Under the pieces are notes generated by a model. It saw only the letters and a list, made by a program, of their open reading frames with translations. It was not told the origin of the DNA and did no database searches. A stretch of 64,000 nt of DNA from Cinnamomum chago (lineage: Eukaryota; Streptophyta; Magnoliopsida; Laurales; Lauraceae), in contig CP142456.1 of the NCBI GenBank assembly GCA_038049695.1, positions 44,186,001 through 44,250,000 on the forward strand, read 5' to 3'. Positions 6,910 through 60,145 of the stretch are shown piece by piece (the stretch's first letter is position 1; each line of letters begins with the position of its first letter). Both the position numbers and the translations under genes were made by a program.

Positions 6910-8697
6910 ATGAAACTTCTAATGGGAATGAAGATATTTTGGAATTCAGAGTAGTCTGAATTGTTTTGACGCATGCTCTAACTGTCAGAGTTGACCTATA
7001 TAATTGTCAATAGCTCTAATTTTGAATTGTCACAGTTGACTAATAGAATTGACAATAGCTTGAATAGTCATGACAATAGCTTTACTTTTGGAATTGTCAG
7101 TTGATTTATAGACCTTAAAGAATGTTTAGAAACTGAAATGTAATTGTTGCTATACGAATATGACAATGTTTAACTTTGATATGTCATAGTTGTTTTAATT
7201 ATTTGGAAATCTTTTCTATTTGAGATGTCGTCGTTGCTTATATTTGCTTCATGAGCATAATTTTACATCATTTCACTTAATTATGGTGTTGCAGATCCTT
7301 ACTTTGTTTCAAAATGGATGCGGATATGGAATTCTTTTATTTATGTGCCCAATCTATAGCTCTTATTTGCATCCTTGGATACTACTGTAAGACCCCGACC
7401 CGAGTGAACTCGATTAGTATTGATTAAGATGTGTGTTAGTTCTAAGCTTGATTAGTGATTTTGGCTAAGTTGGCTTTAGAATAGCTTTTGAAATAGTTTT
7501 GGGAATTTTGATTGTCTTGTGATTAGTGGGACCCTATGGGGGTTCCCTTTTTATGACATTGCATGTGTTTGGGGATTTATCGGAGACTTTTGCATTCATG
7601 GTTTTAATCCCGTTTTAATTGTATTGTTAATCCCTACAACTTTCATGTTGATCCCGTCCCCGTTTGAGATCCCGATTTTATAGCCTTGAGGGGAAAACAG
7701 TCATTGTGCACTAAATCTGTACCCAAAACTTGATATTCCCGAAACCCGCGAAACATATACTTTTTGGAAACTAGATATTTCGACAATCACTTTTCTCTTC
7801 TTCGTCGAATTCATTAGAAGCCCCGAAAGCCATGATTTCAGCTCAATTAGATTATGAGTAGTGGAGCCCACTCCCCACTTGTTTATAAGGAAGCCCTTCC
7901 CCTTTCATTTCCCTTTTTCCAACACAAGACTGAAAACCTAGGGTTTCCATTGCCTTCCTTCTTGCTCTTGCCTTCCATCACCAAATCCACCACCAACCTT
8001 GCATAAATTGAGAGGTGGAGATCATCATCTTCTTCCTCATCACTATAGCTCTCTATTGATACCATTGCTAGAGAAAACCCTCCATTCCAAGACTTCCTTT
8101 GAGCTCACCTTGTCCATTAGAGGACCTTACAAGTAAGTAATCCTTCTCTTCTTCTAGATTTGTGTTCCTCTAGCCCTAGAGAAGCTTCACCTTCATTATT
8201 GTAAGGTTCCCTTTTTCTATTTCATTGTTTGACCATTTTAGGGTTTTATTTTGGGATTTTGTTCATAGCTTGGATTCTTTGCTTGGAGAGTAGTAGAGCT
8301 TGATCTCATTGACTAGAAGACCCAAGGCAAGTGGATGATTGATTTTTATAAGTTTTCAATGATTTTAGTATTTTCCACTCATGCCTATTTATTGCTTTGT
8401 TTTGAAATAAATGTTCATGATAGAGTATTAATGGTGCATTTATATCAAAGAGATGTGTTGGTTCATAGCATTTAATTCCTCTTGTTTTGTCCCAAATATA
8501 TCTCATGTGAAATGGTTTCCTTCTTTCTTTCCTTGTATTGAATGTGATATTGATGGATGAGAATGGGATGAATATGGTGAAAGATTTGATGTTATTTGAA
8601 TGAAGTTTTAGACTCCTCATTTGATGTATGAAAGTGGTTAAAAAGAGGTTGGAGAAGGAAGAGATAGAGAGGAGCTGAACTGGCCCGGAATCAGTTT

Positions 8698-8965
8698 CTG
8701 GACAGTTCGCTCGAGCGAACATGACACTTCGCTCGAGCGAAGTGTCCAGAAAAGGGTTCGGAGCATTCCAGTAGCTTGGTCGCTCGAGCGGACATCCCAG
8801 AATTTGTTCTAGAGAGTTGTTTGTTCGAACGCACTAAAAACTTCGCTCGGGCCAATGAGTTCGGTCGAGCGACCTCAACTTCGCTCGAGCGAACCCACCC
8901 AGACAGCCATCCCAGAGAGCCCCTCGCTCGAGCGAACTCTTCGGTTCGCTCGAGCGATGAGCTTT
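8698..8965. repeat. array of CTCGAG-centred palindromes in LTR
   Basis: About eight to nine units of the type TTCGCTCGAGCGAA (some perfect 14-16-bp palindromes, some diverged) are separated by 15-35 bp of unrelated sequence. They lie downstream of the LTR TATA-like box, so they should be in transcribed leader. The array is CpG-rich compared with the surrounding LTR. Confidence 0.9.
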
Positions 8966-9939
8966 GTTGGTTAAGGGTCATGTTTAGGACAATGATTAAC
9001 TATTTAAACGATTGGGACTATTCATTGGGAACCCCTCTATGTCAAGGAGATTTACTAAGCAATGTATGAGGTCATTTGTGGAAGAAACCATATCATGCGG
9101 ATGTCATTTGAAGTTTTGAAAATTCGGAGTGTATAAGGAGTCCGGAATGTCCCCAAACTCAAAGAGTACCAGATTGTTATTAGATTGACATACTGAGTCC
9201 CTATTCACTTCAAATAGATCTTGAACCTGAAATTCCAATTGTTTATTGTACCTTATCGATCCCGAGATTTATACTACATGTCTTTTTTTCCCAAAAGCAT
9301 TGATGTACACTGAAAATGGTTACTTGACCCGAAGTGCATTACACCACATGAAATGACAGTGTGCCCTTGAGCACCCCCGCCTTGCCCGTTTATTTATTAT
9401 ACTTGATTTACTTGCATATGTCTCGATTTGTTATTTGACCTATTAGTCGGCACCACTAAGCTTGGATAACCCTGTTGGTCTGATCCACCGACTTGGAGAT
9501 CCCCCTCTTGTCCCACCAGCTGTAGTTTGGATCCCGCTACCTGGTTATTACCGTGGTCTTGTCCCGATGCCGCAGATTGCTACTGTGGTTCCCGATGCCC
9601 GGCTCGCTACCGTAGTCATGTATAGTATAGTATATGTATATGTTTATGTATTTATAAGATCCATTGTTTCTCCTCACCTCGAGTGACTGAGATCAGTGCC
9701 TACTTATTGCTCTATTGCTTTAGTGATAGAGGACTTAGCTTCGTGTGGTTGTCATCTTGCTTGTTTCCCGTTTCCTTGGTTACCTTACATGTTTTATAAT
9801 GTCTACTTGCATTTGAATAAATGTTTTATCTCGTTCATAGAAATTGTTATTTAAACAGGTTTGCATGTTTTGAAGGTAAATTCATTTATTACCATATTGT
9901 TGTTGCATTTTTACCCATTTGCCAAACTGTGGTTTTTGA

Positions 9940-10050
9940 CCCACTTTTTGGTACTCAGGTCCCGTTGTTGGTTATCCCGAGGAGGAGCACGAGGAGGCGG
10001 TCGGAGAACCGCAGCAGTTAGTTGAGTGGCATGCTGATGACGTCATTTAG
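9940..10050 (+). other. conserved 33-codon frame in LTR 3' region
   Basis: The frame reads from a TTTGGTACTCAGG block through the acidic stretch YPEEEHEEAVGEP and ends VEWHADDVI-stop. The equivalent windows in the LTRs at 19529, 29225, 37740 and 39580 are also 33 codons with no gap and end EWxxDDVI or EWQPNDVM. There is no obvious start codon, so if translated it would be a downstream exon or read from a non-AUG start. Alternatively the block is a cis-element, since it contains the bZIP-type palindrome TGACGTCA. Confidence 0.4.
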
Positions 10051-11046
10051 ACGTTTGGTTGCTATGAGAGACTTAATATTTTGGGAAATTGTTTAACCAT
10101 TCTTTGGATTGGTATTTTTTTTATATTGGCCTTTGTTGGCCTCTATTTTTGGGGAATGTAACTAAATAATCTGTTGTTTAAACTTTAACCTTACTTTTGG
10201 GTAACATGCTAATGATCATTGCTCATTCTGATACGGTACTATACTTGTGTTATTTATCTTTATGATTTGAGATGAATTGAATATTTGATTTGCTACACGC
10301 TTCCGCACTTAATAGAAATGTTCATTTATGGTTGTGATAGCCTCACCACGGACACTTGTGGGAAATTAAATAAATGTATGGAATCATTTAACCGATGTGG
10401 TAACATCATCAATCATCATCAATAGTCCCGATCCCGGATTCCCGGTTCGGGGTCGCGACAACTACTTTTCATATGGTTATAGGGATAGGGTCCACGACTC
10501 TATCCGAAGTGGTGATTCTTTTGTTAATGAATTACTGATTGGACATGAACGTAGTTGCTTTGATTTGATACGGGTGAGCAAAGGAAGTTATATAAATCTA
10601 TCCAATGAGTTAAGAGAAAGAGGTTTACTAGCAGACTCACGAAATGTTACGATGGAGGAACAAGTTACGATATTTTTGTTCACCATAGCTCACAATGAGC
10701 GCAATCGAGTGATGCAGAATAGATTCCAACACTCCGGTGAGACTATTAGCAAGTACTTCAATAGAGTTTTGAGCGCAGTTTTGCACCTTTCTTCTTTTTA
10801 TATTAAACCCGTAGGAGGTGAGACTCCACCAGAAATTGCTACGAATCCTACATTCTACCCTTACTTCAAGGTAAACTTTATGATCATTTATATAACTTTG
10901 TTTATTAAACTTTGTTAGAGATGTTATAATAAATTTAATAGAACTTGTTGACCAATAGGATTGTATTGGAGCAATTGACGACACACATATATCGGCATGG
11001 GTTCGTTTAGAAGACTAGGTGTGTTACTGAAACAGGAAGGGGCTCA

Positions 11047-14000
11047 TGTAAGACCCCGTCCCGAGTGACCTCGATTAGCATTAATTAAGTCTTATTTTAG
11101 TTATAAGCGTGATTAGTAGATTTTGGTTAAGTGAGGATTAGAATAGCTTTTGATATAGCTTTCGGGAATTTTGAGTGCCTTTGTGACTAGTGAGGCCCTT
11201 TCGGGGTTCCTTTTATGACTTTGCGTTTACTTGGGGGATTAACTGAAATTCTTGTGTTTGATTATTTAATCCCGTTTTATTTATATCATTAATCCCTACA
11301 ACGTTTATGTTGATCCCGTGCCCATTCGAGACCCCGAAACCCGACTTTCCTAACATTAAGGGCAAAACAGTCATTGTGCACTAAATCTGTACTCAAAATT
11401 TGATATTCCCGAAACCCATGAAACATATACTTTTTAGAAACTAGATATTTCGACGAGCACCTTTCTCTTCTTCGTCGAATTCGTTTGAAGCCCAGTAAGC
11501 ATGATTTCAGCCCACAAAGGATTCTAGTGGTGGGACCCAACTCAATCTTTTATAAAAAGAGAACTCTCTTCTACCTTTCCCCTTTTCTAGCTCAACTCCA
11601 ATCTTCATCTAGGGTTTCCTTTTCTTCCTTCTTTTCTTGCTTTCCCATCCCCAAATCTCCACCAAACCTTGCACAAATGGAGAAATGCTTGTCTTCACTC
11701 TCTTCCTCTCTTTGAGAACTATCCATTGATATTATTTGTGGAAGAAGATACCCATTCCAAGACCTCCTTTTGAACTAACCTAGCATTTTAAAGAACTCTC
11801 ATGTAAGTAATCCTTCCCCTCTTTTGATATTGTGTTCTCCTAGCCTAAGGGAATCTCCATTTCCATTATGGAAGCTTCTTTCTCCCCATTTTATGTTTTG
11901 ACTCTTTTAGGGTTTTGTTTTGGGGGTTTTTGCTTGTAGCTTGGACCTTTGGCTTGGAAGGCTTGTTAGAGACTCTAAGGCAAGTGGATGGAATGATAGT
12001 TTGAGCATTTAATAGTTTTATGAAGAATGTGGTTGGTTTTGTTATTCTTGTTCATATTTATTAGCTTGCATTGATTTGAAACAAATGCTCATTAAAGAGT
12101 TTTGCTAACTCATTTATTGTCATGAAAATGTGATGGATAGTCTTTCCTTTATCTCTTGATTATAGTTCAAATGAATTTTTATGGTTGTGTGTTTCATTCT
12201 CTCTTCATGATTAAATATAGAAAAGAATGGAGAAAAATGGATGGATTCTTGGTGGATGTTTTGGGGAGTTTGAAGGTGATATTGAGGTGATTATATGCCC
12301 TCTATTGTGTGTAGAAATGGAGCCTCAAATGGACTTGAAAGGAGAAAGAGAGGAGAGGCTGAACTGTCCTAGAATTAGTTCCTGGATAGTTCGCTCGAGC
12401 GAACTTGACAGGTCGCTCGAGCGAAATGTCCAGAATAGGGTTCGTGCCATTCCAGTGGACAGTTCACTCGAGCGGACCCCTTTGTCGCTCGAGCGAACCC
12501 TCCCAGAACTCATTCCAAAGAATGGTTAGTTCGAGCGAACTGAACTTTCGCTCGAGCCAACCTGATACTGGATGAGTTCGCTTAAGCGACCTCAACTTTG
12601 CTCAAGCGAACCCACCCAAACGACCATTCCAGAGAGCTCACTGCTCAAGCGAACCTATAGTCCGCTCGAGCGATAGGTACTGTTCACCTGGGGTTGTTTT
12701 GGGAGCACTAAAGAAATGTTTAAATGATTGAGGAAGGTTTGTTGGGAGCCCTATTGTAATGAGAAGAACCGTTCTAATGATTGAACATCTGTTCGAGAAA
12801 GAAACCACATCACAAAGATTTCATTTGAAGTTTTAAAAATCCTAAGGTATATAAGGAGCCCGGAATGTCCCCAAACTTAAAGAGTACCAAGTTGTCATTA
12901 AATCGACATACGGGACCCCTATTCACCTTAAACAAATCTTGAAACCCGATACTTGTCTTGAGATTTTGAAAGTTCATTTGTATTTCATTATTCCCGAATT
13001 CTTTATGCATTCCCGAGAACATTGAAATAGAAATTGTAGCATTTTTCTAGTCCCGATAAGCATGCCCGGATTGATATGACAGTTGTGCCTTTGAGTACCC
13101 CCGTCCCGTTTATTTATGTACTTGTACTTGATGTATTTCATACATGTTTTAATCTTGTCTTTTGACCTATGAGTCGGTACCACTAAGCTTGGATAACCCT
13201 GTTGGTCTGATCCACCGACTTGGATATCCCACTCTTGTCCTGCCAGCTGCAGTTTGGATCCCGCTACCCGGTTATTACCGTGGTCTTGTCCCGATACCCC
13301 GGATTGCTACCGTGGTTCCCGATGCCCGCTCGCTACCATGGTCATGTCACATATATTATATGTATATGTATATATTTCGTTGTTTCTCCTCACCTCGTGT
13401 GACCGAGATTAACACCTTGATATTGCTATGTCACTTCGGTGATAGAGGACTTAGCTTCGTGTAGTTGCCATCTTGCTTGTTTTCCCGTTTCCTTGGTCAC
13501 CTTTACATGTTTTACAACGCATACTTGTATTTGAATAAATGATTTATCTCTTTTATGGAATTATTATTTAAACAAGTTTTAAATGCCTTTGAAGGTAAAT
13601 TCATTTATTGTTATATTGTGATGTCTCTTCACCCATTACCAAACCGTCATGTTTGACCCACTCTTTGGTACTCAGGTCCGGACATTGTTTATCCCGAGGT
13701 GGAGCTTGAGGACGCGGTCGGTGAACCGTAACGCCTAGTTGAGTGGCATGCTGATGATGTCGTTTAGACATTTGATTGCTTGAGAGACGTAACATTTTGG
13801 GGACGTTTAACCATTCTCTTGGGGATTAGTATTTTGTTTATATTGGCCTTTGTTGGCCTCTATTTTTTGGAATGTAACTAAATGATCTTTTGTATAAACT
13901 TTAACTTTTTTGTTGGGAAAGCACTAATGATCATTGCTCATTCTGATACTTGGTTTATATATATGATTTTATCTTGTGACTAGAATTGAAATTATCAATT

Positions 14001-14150
14001 TGATTTGCTACACACTTCCGCATTAAAAGAAATATTTATGTTGTTGTGATATCCTCACCGCGGACACCTGTGGGAAATGAAATATGGCACACACACAATA
14101 ATTAGTCTCGATCCCGGATTGGTCCCGCGGGCCTGGTCCGGGGTCGCGAC
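11047..14150 (+). mobile_element. solo LTR of the same long-LTR gypsy family
   Basis: A roughly 3.1-kb LTR starting TGTAAGACCCCGTCCC and ending GGGGTCGCGAC, with GGCTC repeated on both sides (11041-11045, 14151-14155). It lies in the Harbinger transposase gene, same orientation as the solo LTR at 7386. It carries a clear TATAAAAA at 11551, a palindrome array at 12387-12690, the CACTAAGCTTGG block at about 13181 and the conserved 3' blocks. There is no internal region. It is a different insertion from 7386, as its target and sequence differ. Confidence 0.9.
12387..12690. repeat. array of CTCGAG-centred palindromes in LTR
   Basis: About nine to ten TTCGCTCGAGCGAA-type units, several with CTCAAG in place of CTCGAG, separated by 15-40 bp. 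It occupies the same LTR position as the array at 8698. The individual intervals have changed, but the motif is kept. Confidence 0.9.
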
Positions 14151-14590: not shown

Positions 14591-15163
14591 TATGATTAGT
14601 CTATGTGGACTATCTTTGATACATTATTTTTGTTATTTAAAGTCTCTCACACATCTATTATTTTTTCTTACCACAGCTTCTTCTATCTAATCTCGGACTA
14701 GTGGTGAACCATAAGCTATGTGCATCAAAGTTTGCAGGCTTTGAGAGGCCATGACAAGATCAATCTTATGATTGGAGACGTTATCATGACATTGGTCGAC
14801 AAAGAGAAAGGCGGAAGAAGTATGAAGCAAGACAACTCCTTTAAAAGAAGAAAATCCATGATAGTAGACACAACAGTATTGATAGTGAAGGCATCCTTCA
14901 ATCTTTCTTTCTTTTTTTTTTTTTTTTTGCATCTGAAATGACTTAATCTTGTTAAAAAATTATTATACGAGCGCCAATCTAAGAGTGGCCATTTTATGCA
15001 TGGTAGGTGTTCTCTAACCAAGTAGATATGATCCTGTAAGAGTGGCAATCTAAGAGTGACATTTTTATTCTTAGTCAGAATATCGAGGCTTTCACAATTT
15101 GTATGTACCTCAGAAATTGCATATTTGGCATTGGACGTCGACACAAAAAATTGGTACAAAAGC
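14591..15163 (+). repeat. arm 1 of a large inverted duplication
   Basis: Matches the reverse complement of 19100-19528 plus 22635-22768 at roughly 90% identity by eye. Shared blocks include GATTAGTCTATGTGGACTATC, CAGGCTTTGAGAGGCCATGACAAG, TGATTGGAGACGTTATCATGAC and GGTAGGTGTTCTCTAACCAAG. The two arms were adjacent, separated by only a few tens of bases, before a solo LTR (15169-19094) landed in the loop. ORFs on both arms mirror each other and look non-coding. Confidence 0.85.
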
Positions 15164-16729
15164 TATAATGTGAGAACCCGACCCCTAATTTCCTAGATTA
15201 GTGTTGTTTTATTTGTGGATTAGTTTCTTTTTGTGGGATTAGTGTTTGTTGGGTTGAGTTTGTGAGCTAGAATGGTTTTTCACTAGTTTTGGGGAGTTTT
15301 GAGTGCCTTTGTGATTAGTGGGACCCTTTAGGGGGTTCTTTTAGTGACTTTGCGCTTGATTGGGAGATTATTCAAAATTTTTGATAATTCTTGTTTTAGC
15401 CTCGTTTGATTTAGTTTGTTAATCTCTACAACTTTCGTGTTCACTCCATACCCATTCGAAGCTCCGAAAATCAGTTTTTCCAGCCCTGGGGGCAAAATCG
15501 GTCTTTTCACATTGAATTTGGACCCAAATTTCGATATCCCAGAACCATGCCAAAATTATACTTTTTGAAAACTAGATTTTTTGAGAAACATTTTCCTCTT
15601 CTTCGTCGATTGCATCCGAGGCCCAGAAATTGATGTTTTAATCCCGACAAGTTTAAGTGATGGTGGGGCCCACACCCACCCTTTTATAAAAGGGACCAGC
15701 CCCTGTCTTCCTCTCCCATTCGTTCCAGCACACTTGAGGGGGGAGGAACTTCAGCTCCATAGGGCTTTTGCCCTTTTCTTCTTCTCCTTCTTGCTTCCTT
15801 TCACAAAACCCACGTCCAAACCTTGCAAAATGGAGATTGGAGCTCAACTTCTTATTCTCCATCATTCTAGCTTCCCATGGACACCATTATTGTACAAATC
15901 TCAGCTGGGCAACCCCTATTTCAAGCTTCTTCTTGTTGATTGATGGCCCTAGAGGTAAGGACTTTTTTCCATCTTCTATTGTTGAGGCTATGGCTTTCCC
16001 TTAGGTTCTATTTCCTAGTTTGGTTTGAGCCCATTCCTTGTCTTTCATTGTTTGACCCATTTTAGGGTTTGTTTTGGGGGTTTTGCTTGTAGCTTTGGAG
16101 CTTGGATTTAGAAGAGTGTTTAAGCTTGATTTCTTGATTAGAAGACCCAAGGCAAGTGGATGAATGGATCGTTTTGATTATTGACATGTTTTGTGAGAAA
16201 AGCTTGATTCATTAATGGTTTTGATGATTGTAATACTTGTCTTTTGCTATGATTAATATTGATTTCGAAATGTGCTTATTGATGAGTCTATTTCTCTCTT
16301 GTTCATACTTGGAAATGTATGCATCATGTTGTCAAGATTTCAAATGGTTTCACATAAATGAGTTTTCCCTACCTTGAGATTGATTGTGAATGGAAAGAAT
16401 GGAAAGGGAGAAATTTGAAATGAGGAGAATGGAAGTGTTGAATGATGCATTTGAGGAGCTTTTTAGCTCATTTGATGTCTTGAAAACATTGGTTTATAGT
16501 TTTCATTATTTCTTGTTAATAGCTCAATGGATTCTTGTGATTAGTGGGTTTCTTCTCTCTTTGGTGATTGAATGTAAAAAGATGGAGGTGTTTGGGATGG
16601 ATGTTTGTGAAATTTTGATGGTGTATGGGAGGAGGTTTTAGCACATTTTACTGTATGAAGATGAATGGGAATGAAGGGAAATGGTTTAAGGGAGAAAAAA
16701 GGGCTCAAATCTGGTTACAGAAGGGCTTT

Positions 16730-17010
16730 TCCGCACCTGGCGGTTAGCCAGCGATCACCTGTCGGCTAGCCGCCTGGTGACTGGCGGCTAACCGCCAGAT
16801 AACCGCACAGTCGTGGTCACTTTTCCAAAGAACTTGATTTCTTCCCCAAAGGCGCTGTCGGCCACACGGTTAGCCAGCGGCTAACTACCGAACCCATCGG
16901 CGGCTAACCGCTAGCCAACCGAACCATTTCGGTTACTTTTCCAGTAAGCTGCACTTTGTCAGGCCAACCGTGGTCAGCCAGCGGCTAACCACCAGCTGAC
17001 CAAAATCACC
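16730..17010. repeat. array of GGCTAACCGCC-type dyads in LTR
   Basis: Repeated short motifs such as GGCGGTTAGCC, CGGCTAGCCG and GCGGCTAACCGCC, many near-palindromic, sit in the position that holds CTCGAG palindromes in the sister LTRs. Repeats of this same type occur in the solo LTR at 39580. Confidence 0.85.
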
Positions 17011-17954
17011 CAAAAACCCTGAAATGAAGAGAAATGGAAGGGGTTTCTATCCCAATCATTCGTGAACCCTTTTAGAGAATGATGGGGACTGTTCATCGGG
17101 AGATACGTACGAAGCCCGTTTGAGAAGAGAACCATGTCACAAAGATTCATTGAAGTTTTGAATTCACAAAAGTGTATAAGGAGCCCAGAATGTCTTCAAA
17201 TTCAAAGAGTACCAAGTCTATATCTAAATCGACATACGGGACCCCTATTCACCTTAAACAAAGCAGAAAATCTCTATTTTACCCGAAAGTGTATTAGTTC
17301 ATTGTATTTCCTTATTCCCAAGACTTACATTACATGACTTGTTTTCCCGAAAGCATCAAAGTTACACTGGTAACAGTTACTTGTCCCGAAATGTATTGCC
17401 CGACGTGAAATGACAGTTATGCCTTGAGCATTCTTGCCCCGCTCATTTATGTACTTGCACTTGATGTATTTCATATATGTTTGATATTGTCATTTGACTT
17501 ATGAGTCGGCACCACTAAGCTTGGATATCCTCGTTGGTCTGATCCATCGACTTGGAGATCCCCTTCTTGTCCCGCCAGCTGCAGTTTGGATCCCGCTACC
17601 CAGTTATTACCGTGGTCTTGTCCCGATACCGTAGATTGCTACTGTGGTTCCCGATGCCCGGCTCGCTACCGTGGTCATGTATAGTATATGTATTTATAAG
17701 ATCCACTGTTTCTCCTCACATCGAGTGACTGAGATCAGTGCCTAGTTATTGCTCTGTCACTTTGGTGATAGACGACTTAGTTTCGTGTGGTTGCCATCTT
17801 GCTTGTTCCCGATCCCTTGGATACCCTACATATTTTATACTGCTTATTTGTTTTCCGGTAAATGATTCATTTCTTTTATGAAAGTTATTATTTAAACAGG
17901 TGTTAATATTTTCCAAGGTAAATTCAGTTATTGTTATATTGTTTCCCGTTCCTT

Positions 17955-18480
17955 GTACACACACGCTTTAAATGAATACCCGGTTTGTCGAATACTCATG
18001 CTTTTACATATGTTACAAATGAACATTGGTTTTGCTAGATTTCTATGGTTACACACGCTTTAAATGAATACCCGATTTGTTAAATATCCGTGCTTTTAAA
18101 TATGTTTTAAATGACACTTGTTTTGCAAGATCCTTATGTCTACACATGTTTTAAATGAATACCCGATTTGTTAAATATCCATGCTTTTACATATGTTTCA
18201 AATGAACATTTGTTTTGCCAGATTTCTATGGTTACACATGCTTTAAATGAATACCCGGTTTGTCGAATACTCATGCTTTTACATATGTTTCAAATGAACG
18301 TTTGTTTTGCTAGACCTCTATATTTACACATGTTTTAAATGAACACCCGATTGTCAAATATCTATGCCTTTATAGATGATGTAAATGAACATATGTTTTG
18401 TTTGATCTCCATGTTTAACTCATGCTTTAAACGAATACATGTTTTGTTAGAGATCCACGATTTTCCACCCGTTTAATTAT
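17955..18480 (+). repeat. tandem repeat, about 91-bp period, five to six copies
   Basis: Each unit has ACACATGCTTTAAATGAATACCCG followed by a CATGCTTTTACATATGTTTC half, so the unit itself looks like two related half-units of about 45 bp. Copies begin near 17958, 18050, 18142, 18233, 18324 and 18415 and decay toward the right. It is specific to this LTR within the window. Confidence 0.85.
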
Positions 18481-19099
18481 ATGCAGCATTTGATCAAATA
18501 TCATGATTTATCATATGTTTTATTCTTCAGTATATTTTTTATCTTTTGATCCACTTGCCAGACCGTCGTGTCTGACCCACTACTTTTGGTACTGAGGTCC
18601 AGACTTCTTCGTCCCGAGATGAGTGCTTTTGTTGGCTGTGGAGCCATGTTTTACAGGTTGTTTTGTCGGCTACGTCATGTAGACATTGAGCTTGACATCG
18701 GAGTTGCGTCACATTTGGGTAGGGGTTATTAACTTGTTATTGTATGGCTTTTATTAGCCTTTTCTTGGGATTCTTAATTAATGTACATTGATAATTGTAA
18801 CTTGAACATATATGAGAATGTAATATCCTGTTACTGTCAGCTCTGTACTTTGTTGTGATTGTTTACACCAGTCTGATATGGTTCTTGATATAATAGTTAT
18901 ATGCTAGTGGTGGAGTACGACGCGGAATCCGATGGCCATGGACTCCGGGTCGCAACGCCCCGAAAGCTTCCGCAAAAATATTCAGAGTGTATTAGAATGT
19001 GTTGTCTTCACACATGCGGATCTTGGGAGAGAGAAAAATATAATTATCCTTAATCCCATTCGCGCCCCCTAGGTTCCGGTTTGGGGGCGTGACATATAA

Positions 19100-19528: not shown

Positions 19529-19927
19529 TGTCGCAACCCCGGACCGGGAATCCGGGATAAGAACTAATGAATAATGATTGAAGGATCTACATCACCAATA
19601 TACATACTTATTTAATTTCCCACAGGTGTCCGCGGTGAGGATATCACAACCATAATCGAATATTTCATGTAAGTGCGGAAGCGTGTAGCAAATCAAATAG
19701 TCAACCATCCTTGGTCAAAAAACAATATCACAAGTATAAAGATACTGTATCAGAATGAGCAATGATCTATAGCATATTTACCCAAAGTAAGTTAAAGTTT
19801 ACACAATTATCATTTAATTACATTTCCCAAAAATAGAGGCCAACAAAGGCCAATATAACAAAATACCAATCAAAAGAATGGTTAAACAGTTTCCCAAAAT
19901 ATGAAGTCTCTCATAGCAACCAAACGT

Positions 19928-20038
19928 CTAAATGACGTCATCAGCACGCCACTCAACTAACTGCTGCGGTTCTACGACCGCCTCCTCAAGCTCCTCCTCG
20001 GGATAACCGACAACGGGACCTGAGTACCAAAGAGTAGG
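19928..20038 (-). other. conserved 33-codon frame in LTR 3' region
   Basis: The minus-strand frame ends with YPEEELEEAVVEPQQLVEW then RADDVI-stop. It has the same length and position as in the other subfamilies, and an identical copy lies at 29624-29734. Confidence 0.4.
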
Positions 20039-20989
20039 TCAAACACGACGGTTTGGCAAATGGAGGAAAACCCAATAACAATATGAAAATAAATGAATTT
20101 ACCTTCAAAACATGTAAACCTGTTTAAATAAAAATTTCTCTAAACAAGATAAAACATATATTCCAAATACACGTATGCAATGTAAAACATGTAAGGTGAC
20201 CAAGGAAACGGGAAACAATCAAGATGGCAACCACACGAAGCTAAGTCCTCTATCACTAAGGTGATAGAGCAATACTAGGCACTGATCTCAGTCACTCGAG
20301 GTGAGGAGAAACAGTGGATCTCATATAATTACATATACATATACAATACTATACATGACCACGGTAGCGAGCCGGGCATCGGGACAAGACCACGGTAATG
20401 ACCGGGTAGCGGGATCCAAACTGCAGCTGGCGGGACAAGAGGGGGATCTCCAAGTCGGTGGATCAGACCAACAGGGTTATCCAAGCTTAGTGGTGCCGAC
20501 TCATAGGTCAAATACAATCGAGACATATGCAATTAAATCAAGTACAATAAATAATCAAGCGGGCAAGACGGGGTGCTCAAGGGCACACTATCATATCAAA
20601 TGGTGCAATGCACCTCGAGTCAAGTAACCATTTCAAGTGTATAACAATGCTTTTGGGAAAACAAGACATGTAGGGCAAATCTCGGGATCAGTAAAGTACA
20701 GTAAACAATTGATATTTCGGGAAAATATCTATCTGAAGTGAATAGGGACCCCGTATGTCGATCTAATAACAATTTGGTACTCTTCGAGTTTGGGGACATT
20801 CCGGGCTCCTTATACACTTCGAATTTTCAAAACTTCGGATGAAATCTTCGTGATATGGTTTCTTCCTCAAATGGCCTCATACAATGCCTAATTGAATCTC
20901 CTTGATATAGAGGGGTTCCCAAAGAATAGTCCCAATGCGTTGAAACAATTGAAAATTGTCCCAAACATAGCCTACACCAGACGAACCGC

Positions 20990-21265
20990 ACCGCTCGCGC
21001 GGACTGGAGAGTTCGCTCGAGCGAGTCGCTCGCTGGGATGGTTGTCTGGGTGGGTTCGCTCGAGCGAAGTTAGGTCGCTTGAGCGAACTCATTGGGTTGA
21101 GCGAATATTTAAATGCGTTCGAGCGAACAACTCACTGGAATGAGTTCTGTGATAACCGCTCGAGCGAAAAAGGGTGCGCTCGAGCGACTAAGCTACTGGA
21201 AAGCTCCGAACCCTTCTCTGGACAGGTCGCTCGAGCGAAGTGTAATGGTCGCTCGAGCGAACTGT
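20990..21265. repeat. array of CTCGAG-centred palindromes in LTR
   Basis: About ten TTCGCTCGAGCGAA-like units, identical to those of 30686-30962. The motif is the same as in the 7386 and 11047 LTRs. Confidence 0.9.
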
Positions 21266-22629
21266 CCAGAAACTGATTCCGGACCAGTTCAGCTCCTCTC
21301 TATCTCTTCCTTTTTACAACCTCCTTTTAGCCCTTCTTACACATCAAATGAGGAGTCTAACACCCCATTCCAACCACCTCAAATCTCCAACAACATCCAT
21401 CTCATTCTCCTCCATCAACCATACATTCAATACAAGGAAAAGGGAGAAGGAAATCATTTCACAATACATATATACATTTGAAACAAAACAAGAAAGAATT
21501 AAAAGCTATGATCCAACACATCTTTGTAATCATAATGCACTAACAAGGCTCTTCATGAGCATTTATTTCAAAGCAAAACAATAAATAGGCATGGGAGGAA
21601 ATTAATGAAACCAACCACATTTCTCATAAAAACATTAAAAGCTCTAAAAAGATCATATCATCCACTTGCCTTAGGTCTTCTAACAATGCAATCAAGCTCT
21701 AACAAGTCTCCCAAGAAGGGAATCCAAGCTATGACAAAAATCCCCAAAACAAACAAACCCTAAAAGAGTCAAAACAATGAAATAGCAAGGAAACCTTCCA
21801 ATAATAAAGGTGGAGCTTCTCAAGGACTAGGAGATAACAAATCTAGAAGATGAAGGGGAATACTTACTTGCAAGGTCCTCTAATGGCAATGGTAAACTCA
21901 AAGGAAGTCTTGTGATGGTGGGTTTTCTTCACAAATGATATCAATGGAAAGCTTGCAAGATGAGGAAGAGGATGGTGAGTTCCATTTAGATGTTGGTGCA
22001 AGATTGGTGAGGATTGGAGATGGAGAAGAAAGAAGAAGAAAGAGTTGCTCACAAAACCCTAGGTTTTCGCTCTTGTGCTGGAAAAGGAAATGGAAGGGAC
22101 AAATGAGGAAGAAGGGTTCCCTTTGTTAACAAATGGGGTTGGGTCCCACAACTAAAGAAGATAGTTTGGCTGAAATCATCTCTTTCAGGACCTTGGATGA
22201 ATTCGATGAAGAAGGAAGAAATGATCGTCGAAATATCTAGTTTCCAGAAAGTATATGTTTCGCGGGTTTTGGGAATATCAAGTTTTGGATACAGGTTTTG
22301 TGTGCAATGATTGTTATGCCCTCAAGGCCAAGAATTCGGGTCACGGGATCTCAAACGGAGACGGGATCAACATGAAAGTTGTAGAGCTTATCAATACCGA
22401 TAAAACGACATTAAAACCATGAATGCAAAATCTCCGATAAATCCTCAAACATATATAATGTCATGAAAAGGAACCCCCAAAGGGCCCTACTAACACAAAG
22501 TAAACACAACTCCCCAAAACTAATTCAAAAGCTATTCCAAACCCACTTAGTCAAAATCACTAATCAAGCTTAGTACTAACATGCAACTTAATTAGCACTA
22601 ATCGGGTTCACTCGGGTCGGGTTCTTACA

Positions 22630-32200: not shown

Positions 32201-32325
32201 CACAACTCCCCAAAACTAATTCAAAAGCTATTCCAAACCCACTTAGTCAAAATCACTAATCAAGCTTAGTACTAACATGCAACTTAATTAGCACTAATCG
32301 GGTTCACTCGGGTCGGGTTCTTACA
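29225..32325 (-). repeat. 5' LTR of the chromovirus
   Basis: A 3101-bp LTR, followed on the right by CAAAC (32326-32330), the same 5 bp that flanks the solo LTR at 19529. It contains the palindrome array 30686-30962 and the 33-codon conserved frame 29624-29734. Confidence 0.92.
30686..30962. repeat. array of CTCGAG-centred palindromes in LTR
   Basis: Same array as 20990-21265. The many CTCGAG cores make it CpG-dense in otherwise AT-rich LTR. Confidence 0.9.
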
Positions 32326-40700: not shown

Positions 40701-40749
40701 ATGAGAATGAATGGAAAGGATGAAGGAAAAATGTGAAAATCTGCACTGA

Positions 40750-41190
40750 ATCGCACACCCGTGCATTGGCGGTCAGCTCCACGGTCAGCTCGCGGCTAGC
40801 CGTCTGTGTCCACTGCGGCTAACCGCAGGCTGACCGAACTCAGAGGTTACTTTTCCAGAAGCTAGCATTTTCATCTGGGATCAGCGGTCAGCACCACGGT
40901 CAGCTCACGGCTAACCGCCAGTCTCGCTCGCGGTTAACCGCAAGCCAACCGTGGACTGCGGTTTCTTCTCCAGAAGCTGGCATTTCGATTGTGGTTCACG
41001 GTCAGCTCCGCGGTCAGCTCACGGCTAACCGCCAGTCCCACTCGCGGTTAACCGCAAGCCAACCGCGCAAATACGGTTCCTTTTCCCGAGAGCTAAGTTC
41101 GATTTGCTCTCTAGCGGTCAGCCTGGCGGTCACCTTACGGCTAGCCGCCATGTCCCAGTTCGGCTAGCCGACACCTGACCGCGAGGTGAC
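40750..41190. repeat. array of GGCTAACCGCC/GGTCAGC dyads in LTR
   Basis: A longer version of the 16730 array. Units such as GGCTAACCGCC, CGGTTAACCGC and GCGGTCAGC recur a dozen or more times. There is also higher-order repetition: a roughly 115-bp block containing CGGTCAGCTC and CCAGTC..CTCGCGGTTAACCGCAAGCC occurs at least twice. Confidence 0.88.
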
Positions 41191-42078
41191 CGAAATTCAC
41201 TGTTTGTGTATTTTGAAGAGTTTTGCAAGAATGAAAAACTAGAACACGTTAAGTGACCTTTAGCTTGATATTGTGCACTCGAAACCCAAGATGTCTTTAA
41301 ACGTCTGGGGCACCAATTTTATTTAATTTCCAACATCGGGGCTTCGATTTCACAACGACCATCCAAAGGTCATTACGTGTGCTTGATAAGCCTTGTGTTC
41401 GTGCTTTAGTTTTGATAAAATGAATATCATCGTGAACTTGTTTTGAAGTGTTAGTACAAGCTTGTTTTGGGAGTTTTGTTTCAAGAAAAAAAGGGGATCT
41501 CTTCCTAAGCGTGTTATGCATAATTATTATGCCCGTGCTAGTCGTGCTCGTCGTGATTTGATAAGTGATTTCCCCCTTTCTATCTCGACGTGCTTTGATC
41601 GTGCTTCGCGTGTTTTGTGCATTCATGAATTAAGAAAACACCACTGAGCTTAGACTGCCCTTTCAGTTTGATCCACTGTCTGGGGGTCTTTAAACATGTG
41701 GACTGTCTGCAGACTGGTCGTGTATTTATTACACATCGTGCGTGTCCGGTTCCGCGGCCGGAATTCCCGTCTTTGTGGGAAATCGTGTCGTTCTTATATT
41801 ATGTATATCGTGCTTGTCGTGCGTGCTTGCTCTTTTCATTATATAAATGATAGAGAAAGGATGGGCTCTTTGTGGATTGTAACTATTCATGATATATTAT
41901 GTACTCATGCTAGTTTATTTTGTATCTCAGCTTTGTTCGTATTCTTAAAAATATATCTCAGTTTTGATAGTACTTCATACCAAAGATTTGCTCACATGTT
42001 TTCTCTAAATGTTATGGTTCATGTTCATGCCTACATTGATTACCTGCCAAACCGTCGTGTTTGACCCTTGTTTGTTGG

Positions 42079-42177
42079 TGCCCAGGTGCAGGAGACGTTG
42101 CCTTTGAGGAGGAGCGTCAGGAGGAGGCTTGTGAGCCAACTCCCGTGAGAGAGTGGCAGCCCGACGATGTCATTTAG
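42079..42177 (+). other. conserved 33-codon frame in LTR 3' region
   Basis: Reads through AFEEERQEEACEPTPVREW and ends QPDDVI-stop. It aligns without gaps to the frames in the 7386 and 37740 LTRs although the surrounding DNA has diverged. Confidence 0.4.
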
Positions 42178-42726
42178 ATGTCGGACTGGTCCTCGAGTTT
42201 CGTCACCTTTAGTCTTGGGGTTTCTTTTGGTTATTTTGAGATTGTATTGACCTTTATCGGTCTCTTATGGGTTGTACTAAACTTATTCACTTTCATGTTA
42301 AACTTATAACTTGAACTATGTTTGGGAATGCCATGGTAACTCTTTTCTTTGATGCTATGTCTTGTTTATTATTGTGATAGCACCTAAATATTTTATTGGT
42401 GCTTATATTGGTGTGTTTTGCTACACGCTTCCGCAATCGTGTACGTGTGAGTCAGATCCCGTGTCTTTGGGAATCCTCACCGCGGGAACCTGTGGGAAAA
42501 CAAAATCTTCAATAGTAGTAATCATCACCAAACCAAACCAACGTTGCGGGCCCGGGGATCCGTTCCGGGGTCGCGACAACACCCGCAGGCATGACCACCG
42601 AGACGGACTCCGTGCTTCCCCGAACTGGCGCTTCCACCGAGCTGGCTCAACACCGAGACCGGGGATAATCCTGGAATTTGAGGAGCGGTCCCACACAAAT
42701 CCGTAATCATGAAATGACCCCACACA

Positions 42727-50540: not shown

Positions 50541-50571
50541 TTTTGCAGGTTTGGTTTTGGTAGAGATCCTG

Positions 50572-50589
50572 TCCCCACAGACGGCGCCA
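50572..50589 (-). other. primer-binding site, tRNA-Asp-like
   Basis: The minus strand reads TGGCGCCGTCTGTGGGGA just after the LTR end. The first nine bases match the TGGCGCCGT start of primer sites used by Tat/Athila elements (tRNA-Asp type). Confidence 0.65.
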
Positions 50590-50591
50590 AC

Positions 50592-51261
50592 TGTAAGTGC
50601 CTAAAAATTACAGACTTGGTTTTTGGAGGGGATTAACCTCTTAATTTGATGATTCTGGGAAAGGATCAACCTCCGGTGACCTGAAAAGAAGAACAAAGGT
50701 CAGAGCCCCTGGCTGTGGGTAGCCGAGGGCACTCCGATGGCTAAGTTAGCTTGGCAACTGAGAGGAGAATCATAAAGAAGAAGTATGGGTCAGGCTTATT
50801 GCTTACCTCCTGTCGTTTTTCTCCATGCATTATATAGACGTGGGAGTCTTGTTGGAGTGGACCCTTAGGGAGAGATGAAAGTCCTATCAGCATGTACTTT
50901 CTCTCTTGAGTGGGGGTAGGTAAAAAGGGAACGTCCCGTCGGGCCATCCCCTATGCCTGTAGATGTGACCCTGAGATAAGGCGTGCCACTTATCTAGGCG
51001 GCGCCCACTCTACTTGTCAGTCTGCCGTCCACCGTCATGGCAACACATTTATGGTTGCATTTATGGCTGAATGACAGGAGACCGAGATCAAGTTAGGACA
51101 GAGACCGGGGTGGACACCCGCATGCATGACCACCGAGATGGACTCCGTGCTTCCCCGAACTGGCGCTTCCACTAAGCTGGCTCAACACCGAGACCGGGGA
51201 TAATCCTGGAATTTGAGGAGCGGTCCCACACAAATCCGTAATCACGAAATGACCCCACACA
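50592..51261 (-). repeat. 5' LTR of the Tat element
   Basis: 670 bp with TGTGTGGGGTC and CTTACA ends on the minus strand, followed on the right by GGTC. It matches the distal LTR with a couple of dozen differences by eye. Confidence 0.9.
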
Positions 51262-51639
51262 GGTCTGATTTATAGAAGTTTTCTAGCAATGAATTTATGT
51301 TCAGCCCTTTTATATGGTTTTGTTTATATTAATATGAAGATCTCTGGTTTACTAATGTTTTAAGAATGCTGGAAATCCTTCTCTAAATCTCTGTTTTCAG
51401 CTTAGTTAATGTCCGAATTTCTGCAACAATTCTATGCATGGAGAGGCCAATTGGAGCTTCTATGTTTTCCTCTAATTAGTGTTTAAATTCTGTATCAAAC
51501 TTGTACATGGAATGAGATATTTTTAGAGTTGAATGGATGATATATTGAGGCTTGAGATAACTCAGCTGTAGAGGTTGAAATTGGTTTGAAAAGGGGGGAA
51601 GGAGATGCTGAAAATAGTGCAGGAAACCTGCACAGAACT

Positions 51640-51950
51640 GGGCGTGCAAAGCCCAGTCCGAGTGGGCCTGGGCCGTTTCAGGCCCAATTTCTGGGCAGTT
51701 TTCAGGCCTATTTCAGGCCCAATTTCTGGGCAGTTTTCAGGCCATTTCAGGCCCAATTTCTGGGCAGCTTTCAGGCCCATCCTTGGGCTGGTTTCAGGTC
51801 CATTTCTGGCCCAATTTCAGGCCTGTTTTCCAGCCCATACCAGGCCCATTCTAGTGCTGTTTTCTCCCCAATTTCAGGCCCATTTCTGGGCTGTTTTCCA
51901 GCCCATTTCAGCCCCCATTCCAGCCAATTTCCCCCATTATTTGAAGCCCA
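51640..51950. repeat. array of GGCCCA/TGGGC dyads in LTR
   Basis: Tandem-like repeats of TTTCAGGCCCAATTTCTGGGC with a roughly 30-34-bp period, about ten units. Within units GCCCA and TGGGC form small dyads. The TGGGCC core resembles site II/TCP-type binding motifs. The partner array in the 3' LTR is 59960-60145. ORFs of the FQAQFLGSFQA type over it are repeat artefacts. Confidence 0.9.
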
Positions 51951-52878
51951 TTTAAACCCCATGGGAGCATAGTAGTATGAGATGTATACATTGAATCGAA
52001 TTACCTTGAATCGTGAAATTTAAATGGGAAAAATGATGGAGTTGTTTGATGTTAGAATTGCCCGGGAAATTTAATTAAGTCTTAATACACACTTTATATC
52101 CTTAATTGTCGGAGACCTTCAGTGACACTAAGCTCCGCATATATTATCGACATTAATGGACAAAGTGTATGTCAAGACGACCCGTGGTAAGCCAATAAAC
52201 CACTATACATTAATTCATTCCAAGTTAAGAAAATTTGTATACTTTCTACAAATTGTTTTGAAATAGATTTCAGTGGTTTGCGACATTTGGAAACATCGGT
52301 AAGGCTACTCATCTGATTCGTTCGAATTTTTCAGTATGTATTTGTCTGGAGTAGTTCTGTTTATCAATTTTGGAAATGTATTACTATGATTTGATTTGTA
52401 TTAATTCAGGTTTTGGTTTTGAATGGCACCACTAAGCTTAGGTCACCTAGTTGGGTTGATCACCCGGCTTGGGATCTTAAAATTATTTGCCAACTGCAGT
52501 TTGGATTCTGTTTGTTTGCTCCGGCCATGGCAACGGTTCTGTATTCCGGTCCCACGAGTAGTGGCAACGGCTTCTGTCTGTCTGTTCCGGCCATTTTATA
52601 TGGCAACAGTTATTTGTCTGTGTGCTCTTGTTACTTCAGTAATAGGAGAATATAGCTACCTGTGGTTTGCCAATATTTCGATTATTTGTCAGTTAGTTTG
52701 AAACATTTGAACTTTGAAATTCTTTCATTTGTATAGATTTGGTTCATTTGGTTTACTCTTTATATATGTTTCGTTTCAATTGTATTTTTATGATTTTATA
52801 TATGACATTTATAAAACTTGTATACCTTTTCTGCTTTATTCACTTGCCAGACCGTCGTGTCTGATACTCTTTTGTTTG

Positions 52879-52977
52879 GTGTCAGATGTCGGACCCGCAT
52901 ATTTTGAGGCAAAGCGTGCGGTTGTGGCGGTAGAGCTGCCAGTGGAGCGCGAGTGGCAGCCCAACGATGTCATGTAG
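52879..52977 (+). other. conserved 33-codon frame in LTR 3' region
   Basis: Runs from GTCAGATGTC to ...LPVEREWQPNDVM-stop. It is the most diverged member of the set but has the same length and the same EWQP.DV ending. Confidence 0.4.
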
Positions 52978-53372
52978 ACGTCGTGTTGGAATTTGAGCTG
53001 GGATAACATTTTGGGAACTTAGTTTATGACCTCATCTGGTCTTCTTTTGGGGTCTATAAATTAAATATACTTTTGTGATCCTCACAACTTTAACTAACTT
53101 TGGGTTATAGCTTTTATATATTTCATTTTTGATACAGAGTTTGTGCAATTATCTTATATCTCATTTGGTTTCTATTTTGCTACAAGCTTCCGCATATTAT
53201 TATTTATTGTGAATTCGATTAATTGGTTTTGATGGATCGTCTGGAATCCTCACTGCGGAATCCTGTGGGAAAATAAATAACGTGTGCGGGCGGAATTTTC
53301 TGACCCGTCGCGCCACGTCCCCCGGATTAAGGGCTTGATTTTCAGGGTCTCGGTCCTGGGGCGTGACAGGCT

Positions 53373-57800: not shown

Positions 57801-58261
57801 AAGTGTTTTTGAAAGTGTCACCGGTCAGAGGGACATTGAGATTCGGTCAGAAGGGTAAACTGTCAAGAAGATTCATTGGACCGTATGAAATCCTGAGTCG
57901 TATTGGTGAAGTGGCTTACAGACTGGCCTTACCGCCAGAACTTTCGGGTGTGCACAATGTGTTTCATGTATCGATGTTGAAGAAATATGTTTCAGACCCC
58001 TCACATGTACTAAGACATGAGCCATTAGAGATTCGGGAAGATGCCACTTATGTTGAGAAACTGGTCAGAATCATTGATACGAAAGAGCAGGAATTGAGAA
58101 ATCGGACAATTCACTGGGTAAAAGTGCTTTGGGAGAACCACGAGCCAGAAAAAGCTACTTGGGAATTGCATGATCAGGTTCAGAAGAAGTACCCGCACTT
58201 GCTACCAGAGGTTAGTATTCATTTGGAGGACCGAATGCCTTTAAGGGGTGGAGGATGTTAG
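54800..58261 (+). pseudogene. second chromovirus pol region
   Basis: Protease ([11 protein letters not shown]). Reverse transcriptase ([30 protein letters not shown]). RNase H ([24 protein letters not shown]). Integrase ([33 protein letters not shown]). Chromodomain-type end ([19 protein letters not shown]). Domain order and sequence parallel the minus-strand chromovirus. Multiple breaks. The last codons run into the start of the 3' LTR. Confidence 0.9.
58242..58255 (+). other. polypurine tract
   Basis: TAAGGGGTGGAGGA immediately before the 3' LTR start TGTTAGG. Same tract as at 24291-24304. Confidence 0.85.
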
Positions 58262-60145
58262 GCCCCGACCCAGGTTTAGTATATATTATTATTGTTTTAA
58301 CTGTGATTAGTCTCTAAGTGGGATTAGGGGACGATTAGCTTGGATTTTTAGTTAGATTAGAATTTTAGATAACATTGGGGAATTTTGAGCGCATTGAGTT
58401 TGGTTTGACCGGACCTGGGGTGGCCCGTGTGTCACGTGTTAGTATGGGAATTTGATTTATTAGATTTATTTGATTTATGAAAAATATGGATTTCGACATT
58501 TTTGAATTTGTTATTTTGATTCCAATAACTTTCATGTTTGCTCCATTTGCATTTGAAACCTAGAAATCGCGTTTTTAGAGAAAAATGTGTAAAACAGTCT
58601 TTGCACACCAAAATCTATGCATAAATTTCGAAATTTGAAAATCATGAGAAAAATATACTTTTTGAAAACTAGATTTTTCAACGATCATTTTTGTTTTCTT
58701 CATCATTTCCATTCAGGACTCACAAATGATCGATCCAGCCACTTGAAGATTTGGGGCCCCATGGGCCCCACCTTTCACAACATATAAACCCATTTAAAAC
58801 CAAGACCCATCATTCCACTCCTTCATTCTTCATTTCTGCAGCAACGAGCCAGGGAGAGAACTCCCTTCTTCATGTCATCTCTCTCTTCTTGCATGTCAAG
58901 AAAACAAACCCAAATTGAAAAACAAATTATATCACCCTATTCCTCATCTTCCAAGCTTGCTATTAATACTATTTTTGGTGAAATTCCAGCTGAAACCAAC
59001 TTCATTTCTCAAGCTTTTGTTGCTGGTTTTTACATCTACAGGTAAGGTTTTGTTTCTCCTTTTAGATATGGATTTTTCACACCCTTTGGAAGCTCTTCTA
59101 CTGGCATGCAAGGAGGCTCTTTGAGAGCTCATTCTCTTTTCAAAATATTGAGTTTTTGAATGGGTTTTTCCCATGGGTTTTGGTGTAGGTTTGCAGCTGG
59201 TTGTAGGAGTTCTTTTAGGTGTGTTTGAGACCCTTTCCATTGGACTAGATGCAAGTGAATAATCAGATTATGTGGTGCATGTTATGAAAAATCTATTCTT
59301 CTTTAAATTCCTTGTTTGCAACTCTAATGCTTTTAAATGGGTTCTTTATCACTGAGATTTGAATTAGAAATGTTTTGAGTGATGACTAATACTATGTTTT
59401 CACATATTATTTGTTACAGCAACATGAACCTCTCTCATGAAAGTTTCTGTTTTGTTTTAAGATAGTGAGGATGCATTTCAGAATTGATATCTTTATGATT
59501 CTATTATGTTAAATTCTGGTTTGAAAATATTAGTTCATTTGAATGATTATTTGAGCAGTGTATGGTCTGATTTACAGAAGTTTTCTAGCAATGAATTTAT
59601 GTTCAGCCCTTTTATATGGTTTTGTTTATATTAATATGAAGATCTCTGGTTTACTAATGTTTTAAGTATGCTGGAAATCCTTCTCTAAATCTCTGTTTTC
59701 AGCTTAGTTAATGTCCGAATTTCTGCAACAATTCTGTGCATGGAGAGGCCAATTGGAGCTTCTATGTTTTCCTCTAATTAGTGTTTAAATTCTGTATCAA
59801 ACTTGTACATGGAATGAGATATTTTTAGAGTTGAATGGATGATATATTGAGGCTTGAGATAACTCAGCTGCAGAGGTTGAAATTGGTTTGAAAAGGGGGG
59901 AAGGAGATGCTCAAAACAGTGCAGGAAACCTGCACAGAACTGGGCGTGCAGAGCCAAGTCCGAGTGGGCCTGGGCCGTTTCAGGCCCAATTTCTGGGCAG
60001 TTTTCAGGCCTATTTCAGGCCCAATTTCTGGGCAGTTTTCAGGCCATTTCAGGCCAAATTTCTGGGAAGCTTTCAGGACCATCCCTGGGCTGGTTTTAGG
60101 TCCATTTCTGGCTCAATTTCAGGCCTGTTTTCCAGCCCATACCAG
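58256..60145 (+). repeat. 3' LTR of the second chromovirus (left part)
   Basis: Matches 37740-39048 and then 51266-51846 of the 5' LTR, a few percent diverged by eye. It includes the beginning of the GGCCCA/TGGGC array. The match stops at ..CCATACCAG where a CACTA terminus begins. The rest of the LTR is expected beyond the window. Confidence 0.9.

Follow-up and report, generated by a model that had tools for sequence, protein, structure and literature searches.

Introduction

The repeat arrays described here lie within the long terminal repeats (LTRs) of plant-type Ty3/gypsy retrotransposons, in a 64-kb window of the genome of Cinnamomum chago (contig CP142456.1, positions 44,186,001 to 44,250,000, the whole stretch of DNA that was analysed), and their closest described counterparts are the RM boxes of the Sireviruses. 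The LTRs of these Ty1/copia elements carry element-specific palindromic words with a CGG-CCG core, which are associated with CpG islands and are shortly followed by a TATA box, and the relevant parts of the Ty1/copia survey describe palindromic LTR boxes as specific to Sireviruses (PMC2829016). The U3 modules of Tnt1 offer another parallel, in that the subfamilies are distinguished mainly by one regulatory segment of the LTR, with BII boxes that bind defence-induced factors, as set out in the sections drawn upon here (PMC1838419, PMC3316501); box I of Tnt1 is symmetric (PMC2829016). Two further systems are the Site II and Up1 elements (TGGGCY and GGCCCAWWW) of host gene promoters (PMC3390389) and the RNA of yeast Ty3, which dimerises via a short palindrome close to the 5' end, just one of the six that it contains being needed (PMC11381356). 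Besides the Sirevirus paper, no dyad array in an LTR appeared in the titles and opening lines of abstracts of the literature searched, which is no proof of absence.

One of the questions raised by the window is what kind of selection could hold an array in place while its sequence is replaced. The initial annotation had proposed that every long LTR carries short self-complementary motifs at one relative position, and that selection acts upon dyad structure rather than upon any one sequence. The position is kept in every copy and the dyads are real in most of the families. The reading that we favour by analogy with the RM boxes, and to which we give a probability of about one half, is that the slot would control transcription from a chromovirus-like Ty3/gypsy LTR, as a module of clustered sites for dimeric host DNA-binding proteins.

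An array slot within the LTR

The window is a nest of such retrotransposons with LTRs of 3.0-3.9 kb, in which six LTR insertions were resolved by self-comparison and by inspection of the ends. Four of these are solo LTRs on the forward strand, namely A (7386..10460, with TG..CA ends, the target-site duplication ACTAC and block model matches), B (11047..14149, the 3' end being approximate and the target duplication not clear), C (15169..19094, duplication TATAA) and E (39580..42578, duplication ACACC), such that the target duplications are clear for A, C and E. Insertion D, on the reverse strand, consists of an element with its 5' LTR (D1, 29225..32325) together with a solo LTR copy (D2, 19529..22629, duplication GTTTG). 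The F element, on the forward strand, has a 5' LTR (F5) that is split by another LTR element into pieces at 37740..39048 and 51262..53368, and a 3' LTR (F3, 58256..60145) that is cut by a CACTA-like insertion. D1 and D2 share a 4.4-kb repeat (19528-23953 and 29224-33649) at 99.7% identity, and because of this the arrays at 20990 and 30686 represent one observation, while those at 51640 and 59960 belong to the 5' and 3' LTRs of the one F element. What had been taken as eight separate cases thus reduces to six independent insertions.

The arrays were placed with hidden Markov models of the conserved blocks on either side (L upstream and M downstream), built from six of the LTR copies that they recover. 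The block-L model finds eight long LTR copies and all eight contain a GC-rich repeat array: A at 8690..8963, B at 12374..12678, C at 16727..17023, E at 40763..41187, F5 at 51638..51957 and a truncated F3 at 59936..60145 on the forward strand, and D2 at 20985..21277 and D1 at 30681..30973 on the reverse strand. A ninth match (24290-23951) comes from an LTR that is truncated at 340 bp and does not reach the slot, and the LTRs of an unrelated second element in the window fall outside the slot count. The array starts about 1.2-1.7 kb into the LTR, and the distance from its 3' end to block M is 154 bp in A, 157 in B, 137 in C, 156 in D1, 86 in E and 153 in F5, with a looser distance of 218-676 bp from block L to the array. 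Since the 3' distance is kept within 86-157 bp, the arrays share one slot that is anchored on its 3' side, and the proposed common position is borne out at all eight coordinates.

The slot had also been placed downstream of a TATA-like box, which captures part of the arrangement. An upstream box near LTR position 500 is present in all copies but E, where none was found (TATAA in A, B, C and F3, TTTAAAA in F5 and F3, and TTAACAAA in D1/D2), but a second box begins 152-171 bp past the array in A, B, C and D, such that the array is flanked by two TATA-like boxes in A-D. In LTR A this downstream box is TATAAGG at 9132..9138, 169 bp past the array; further TATA[AT] matches lie 76 bp past the array in D, 196 bp in C, and 138 and 183 bp in F5. 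A CpG island covers the array in six of the seven copies tested (A, B, C, D1, D2 and E), the exception being F5. Depending upon which box serves as the promoter, the array may act as an enhancer upstream of the start or form part of a transcribed leader.

Across LTR positions of about 750-996, all eight long copies contain GTAAG, a run rich in T that ends with TAG, and GCAAGT. The splice-donor-like GTAAG is invariant at about 750-790 in the six aligned LTRs, GCAAGT occurs at 934-996 in eight of eight copies, and together these signals look like the splice sites of leader introns.

Symmetry and content of the arrays

By consensus scan array A contains nine CTCGAG-type dyads (consensus GTTCGCTCGAGCGAAC), B and D1 ten each, and array D2 is a near copy of D1. 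Array C has six matches to a CGGCTARCCG-type dyad, and array E, built of four units of about 115 bp with paired CGGYTARCCG dyads 23 bp apart, has 12 matches, of which eight are full dyads and four are weaker and mostly of the GGTCA type. The eight arrays occupy 2,417 bp, or 3.8% of the sequence, and hold 20 of the 37 exact palindromes of at least 12 bp in the window (A 5, B 4, D1 4, D2 4, E 3, and none in C, F5 or F3), or 16 without the duplicate D2. When the threshold is lowered to at least 10 bp there are six in A, five in B, six in D1 and five in E, against means of 0.27-0.45 in dinucleotide shuffles (n=300), where the highest single shuffle gave four. The comparison with shuffled controls therefore comes out in favour of A, B, D1 and E, but not of C, with one such palindrome against a shuffle mean of 0.35, nor of F, with none in either copy. 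Symmetry is kept, in other words, in the CTCGAG arrays and, within the second vocabulary, mainly in E.

A more permissive measure extends further, in that each of the six arrays tested has more inverted 5- and 6-mers than its dinucleotide shuffles. In these six they also exceed two false-complement pairings and mirror symmetry, by a margin over these latter controls that narrows in C at k=5 (17 against 12-13) and in F5 with the wider spacer (77 against 51). The GGCCCA/TGGGC arrays had been described as dyads like the rest, and this does not hold. Array F is strand-asymmetric (TTTCAG 10:0) and consists mostly of direct repeats, with 250 direct against 77 inverted pairs (k=5, spacer up to 60), so that it is not dyadic in the same sense, although its short gapped inverted pairs number 22 against a shuffle mean of 7.1. 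The 320 bp of array F5 contain 15 of the 69 TGGGCY matches in the window and five of GGCCCAWWW. The description as dyads is thus right for the CTCGAG arrays and for E, weak for C and largely wrong for F.

A heat-shock-element reading of the spacers was dropped, as TTCNNGAA occurs only once among the six arrays (in E). Of the five copies of AGCCGCC in the window three are in array C and one is in array E, and a GCC-box reading of these two arrays is only a lead.

Different words on similar backbones

That the motif is not conserved between subfamilies is true of A/B/D when compared with C/E, whose words differ, but the arrays of C and E align with one another. In local alignments scored against 40 shuffles the C-E alignment reaches z 42 over most of the length of C, whereas array C gives no alignment with arrays A, B and D1 (z -0.2, 1.2 and 0.8). 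The rest of LTR C has a backbone like that of A/B/D: its right flank and block M match theirs with z 29-66 and 202-264, respectively, against -0.2 and 0.1 (no match) for E, and its left flank favours them with z 15-20 against 6. As the arrays of C and E align and their right flanks do not, the array sequence itself has been preserved, and the array is either old, having outlasted its flanks and been replaced in the A/B/D line, or has been transferred between families. A tree of the LTRs places E and F apart from the group of A, B, C and D with 100% support, and because it is unrooted it does not show which word is the earlier. By these alignments the slot holds different words on similar backbones, a point that rests on six insertions in one window.

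Spacing and the spacer motif

Adjacent dyads lie 18-22 bp apart in A/B/D, with a single gap of 30 in B, and 22-23 bp apart in C/E, with longer spacers between. The dyad spacing of B fits a period of 10.4 bp as well as none of 3000 random-gap sets did, which would put its dyads on one face of the helix, with weaker fits for A at 10.4 bp (p 0.029) and D1 at 10.2 bp (p 0.022). Repetition at a lag of 114-116 bp is pronounced in B, C and E and weak in F5. A spacer motif defined from C/E, TTCCAGWRAGCT, is found with at most two mismatches three times in array A, once in B (a perfect copy) and twice in D1; no array has more than one copy on its reverse strand, the other 2.6-3.6 kb of each LTR likewise hold no more than one, and F5 has none. 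By count, with 300 shuffles and two mismatches, the p-values are 0.000 for A, 0.163 for B and 0.007 for D1. A frame that is partly common to A/B/D and C/E is suggested by these regularities.

Interpretation of the slot

If the slot is a control module for transcription, its clustered and repeated sites, most of which are palindromic and which are rich in CpG in five of the six families, would be occupied by dimeric host DNA-binding proteins in a manner analogous to the RM boxes of Sirevirus LTRs, with a presumed effect upon transcription. The subfamilies keep the slot, and A/B/D and C/E appear also to keep part of a frame, which comprises paired dyads 18-23 bp apart, a TTCCAG-type spacer and, in B, C and E, a higher-order spacing of about 115 bp. 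The words differ, with CGCTCGAGCG in A/B/D, CGGCTARCCG in C/E and Site II words, which in host genes are reportedly bound by TCP factors and active in cycling cells, in F, and each of them would answer to a different host factor.

What is it, then, that evolution has held on to within an array? In A-B the dyads diverge less than the spacers (0.146 against 0.246), as they do in B-D1 (0.19 against 0.252), with adjoining flanks that diverge by 0.34-0.43 in both comparisons. Of the eight pairs in the 29 CTCGAG dyads of A, B and D1, the four innermost are intact in 24-28 dyads, the next two in 20 and 22, and the outermost two in 10 and 13. Seven double changes are seen across these eight pairs, of which five are complementary, against 8.2 expected if the half-sites change independently; in the six inner pairs there are three, all complementary, against 1.6, which is too few to decide. 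The proposal that selection acts on dyad structure instead of sequence is not shown by these data: position is kept, as is symmetry in two of the three vocabularies, but C and E have preserved the sequence itself, and covariation does not exceed controls.

This evidence bears upon three other explanations, the first of which had been offered in the initial annotation beside dimeric sites. The dyads could pair as hairpins in LTR transcripts, serving small-RNA production and silencing or some function of the RNA itself, and the palindromes of maize Sireviruses have reportedly been linked to small interfering RNAs (Bousios, 2016). The arrays of A, B, C, D1 and E do fold strongly, with z of -5.9 to -13.0 over both strands (60 shuffles), and F5 less so (-4.3 to -4.7). 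There is, however, no consistent strand preference in these scores, and strong folding on both strands is what is expected of any palindrome array. Some pairing extends beyond the dyads, with 10 bp flanking the first pair in A, 9 plus a G-U in D1 and 8-10 of 12 positions in the four units of E, and with a mean over 21 dyad pairs of 6.5 of 12 flanking positions against 5.0 (standard deviation 1.4) for mismatched flanks. Against this, the hairpin pairs do not covary above controls (no pairs in A2; two pairs in A3, equalled in 273 of 500 shuffles, with its score equalled in 60 of 500), the alifold covariation term is unfavourable (+0.81), no match was obtained in Rfam at the gathering score, and the G-U bias expected of selection on RNA was not found, the ratio of G-U to A-C being 15:25 in inner and 18:36 in outer positions. 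Because of the helix phasing in A/B/D, the absence of covariation beyond controls and the match to Sirevirus RM boxes, sites for dimeric proteins are favoured over hairpins, which seem unlikely to be the explanation. In the unit hairpin of C/E (40766-41215 and 16735-16956) the non-Watson-Crick cells on the LTR strand are 14 A-C and one G-U, from few independent events, and with 14 of the 15 being A-C it is the antisense RNA that would pair better.

It is similarly unlikely that the arrays are functionless products of neutral turnover, whereby a palindrome arose once in each lineage and spread by slippage or unequal exchange in a tolerant stretch of LTR, even though E is a tandem array and F a direct repeat, the half-sites change about independently and the LTR around the slot is fast-changing. 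Turnover of this kind does not sit easily with arrays that are no more divergent than their adjoining flanks, with dyads that are less divergent in two of three pairs, with a C-E similarity that outlasts the right flanks, with a spacer motif that recurs across two vocabularies, or with the phasing in A/B/D and the match to a citrus Sirevirus core. Less probable still is that the self-complementary words pair two element RNAs in genome dimerisation, where any palindrome would work and different words would separate the subfamilies. Yeast Ty3 RNA provides the precedent, the array would lie in the leader if the upstream TATA-like box is the promoter, and the invariant splice-donor-like GTAAG agrees with such a leader, but Ty3 needed one of six short palindromes and not an array of 14-16-bp dyads (PMC11381356), F has no exact palindromes, the half-sites do not clearly co-vary, and the CpG islands and the Sirevirus core match would be left unexplained.

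A number of observations weigh against the control module as well. F5 and F3 have no exact palindrome of at least 10 bp and array F5 also has no CpG island, E has no TATA-like match within 400 bp past its array, and a second CpG island lies further 3' in each of LTRs A-E. The spacing of C and E fits 11.5 bp (p 0.011 and 0.001, respectively) and not 10.5, with the caveat for E that it is a tandem array (115 bp x 3.4), and the 114-116-bp lag is not among the top lags of D1 and is only weak in A. The likeness of the spacer motif was spotted by eye before its test, its count is not significant in B, and at three mismatches only A falls below 0.05. Divergence in A-D1 is practically the same for dyads and spacers (0.125 against 0.134), the far 3' LTR is conserved about as well as the dyads (0.184 in A-B, 0.182 in B-D1), and A, B and D, because they are related, do not amount to three independent tests. 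Finally, of the 12 distinct published Sirevirus words none has a match of 8-10 bases in A, B, D1, D2 or F5.

A more tentative idea, which we think rather less likely than the control module itself, is that this one LTR slot is an exchangeable socket, in which the C/E and A/B/D states would have different dyad words set in the same frame (paired dyads 18-23 bp apart, a TTCCAG-type spacer, a fixed distance to the next conserved block and, where present, a unit of about 115 bp or about 11 helical turns), one word having been replaced by the other. The same tentative standing applies jointly to the socket and to the suggestion that a Ty1/copia Sirevirus has taken up the same word core. Were this so, sister families could switch from one host factor to another, or evade a repressor that recognises a specific sequence, with no need to rebuild the promoter.

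Other features of the window

The retrotransposons of the window encode protease, reverse transcriptase (RT), RNase H, integrase and SH3_Tf2-1 domains. Both D, whose open pol frame runs from 27778 to 24302 on the reverse strand, and F have the order protease-RT-RNase H-integrase, which we take to be diagnostic of Ty3/gypsy. The Pfam Chromo match is weak (E-values of 9.5e-4 and 2.1e-4; scores of 19.5 and 21.6 bits, where the curated cut-off is 25.1). A primer-site-like TGGTATCAGAGC follows the LTR of D (after 29224) and that of F (after the second piece of F5), and from the long LTRs and this site the elements may belong with Tekay.

In the 4.4-kb duplication a full element whose 3' LTR is truncated to 340 bp is linked with a solo LTR derived from that insertion, a pattern that points to unequal exchange with a break inside the LTR. 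Inverted copies of host sequence, 87% identical, lie at 14729-15133 and 19110-19529, and the former seems to retain the site into which element D was inserted, in its empty state. The second LTR element (39049-51261), which sits inside LTR F5, is itself interrupted by LTR E, and its reverse-strand frames match gag, RNase H and RVT_3, the last of which we take as a hint of a Tat-type element. A CACTA-like terminus (CACTACAAGAAAA) begins at 60146, immediately after the break within array F3 at 60145/60146, and as it is inserted inside this array, one of the arrays has itself been a transposon target. LTR C contains a 92-bp tandem repeat of 5.2 copies (17959-18438), reported by TRF in this LTR and not in the others.

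Searches of viral contigs gave no match for the array, leader or pol patterns, and the 90 pattern matches from the pol alignment included no relatives. Genome contigs gave 251 pattern matches and one relative, BMWJ01000031.1 (3816 bp), whose pol is 89% identical in the best segment and which matches the first 465 bp of LTR A, ending before the slot. This contig is filed under Streptomyces clavifer JCM 5059 and is apparently plant DNA contaminating a bacterial assembly. Plasmids searched with the array A region gave no match.

Comparison with known systems

The three words and the one frame could serve as probes for finding binding proteins and for testing the effect of word swaps on expression or silencing. 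Site II and Up1 elements are matched by array F5 in its several TGGGCY and GGCCCAWWW words, which are found here in a dense LTR array and there in host promoters (PMC3390389). With yeast Ty3 the arrays share a short self-complementary word in an element of Ty3/gypsy type, but the dimerisation signal is one 6-nt site in RNA, as opposed to an LTR array of 14-16-bp dyads (PMC11381356). Tnt1 is alike in having one regulatory LTR segment that differs between subfamilies; it differs in being Ty1/copia, and the parts of its literature drawn upon describe no dyad array or shared spacer frame (PMC1838419, PMC3316501).

The nearest likeness is to the Sirevirus RM boxes, as these are portrayed in the relevant sections of their description. 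Clustered palindromic LTR repeats are found in A, B, D and E by exact palindromes, less strongly in C, where only the symmetry of the words is in evidence, and not in F. At least eight copies are present in arrays A, B, D and E, with six matches in C, and the array coincides with a CpG island in every family except F. The CGG-N0-6-CCG pattern occurs three times in array C (once in the rest of the LTR) and nine times in array E (five in the rest), and is absent from the arrays of A, B, D1, D2 and F5, such that the A/B/D words lack the Sirevirus CGG-CCG core. The array begins about 1.2-1.7 kb into the LTR rather than at 200-400 bp, and the TATA-like box follows the scanned island by 46-142 bp in A-D as compared with a mean of 37 bp (PMC2829016). 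As the element is Ty3/gypsy, the arrays, which may work as an RM cluster does, are not Sirevirus RM boxes by membership. What may be new is the Ty3/gypsy setting, a partly shared frame with different words, and a core shared across superfamilies. The feature is real and has a direct precedent in another superfamily. The C/E core CGGCTARCCG, at three places in C and six in E, equals the citrus Sirevirus RM core CGGCTWRCCG (PMC2829016). A similar anatomy in Ty3/gypsy, together with one core across superfamilies and with words that vary among sister families, suggests that plant retrotransposons have repeatedly recruited a few dimeric host regulators.

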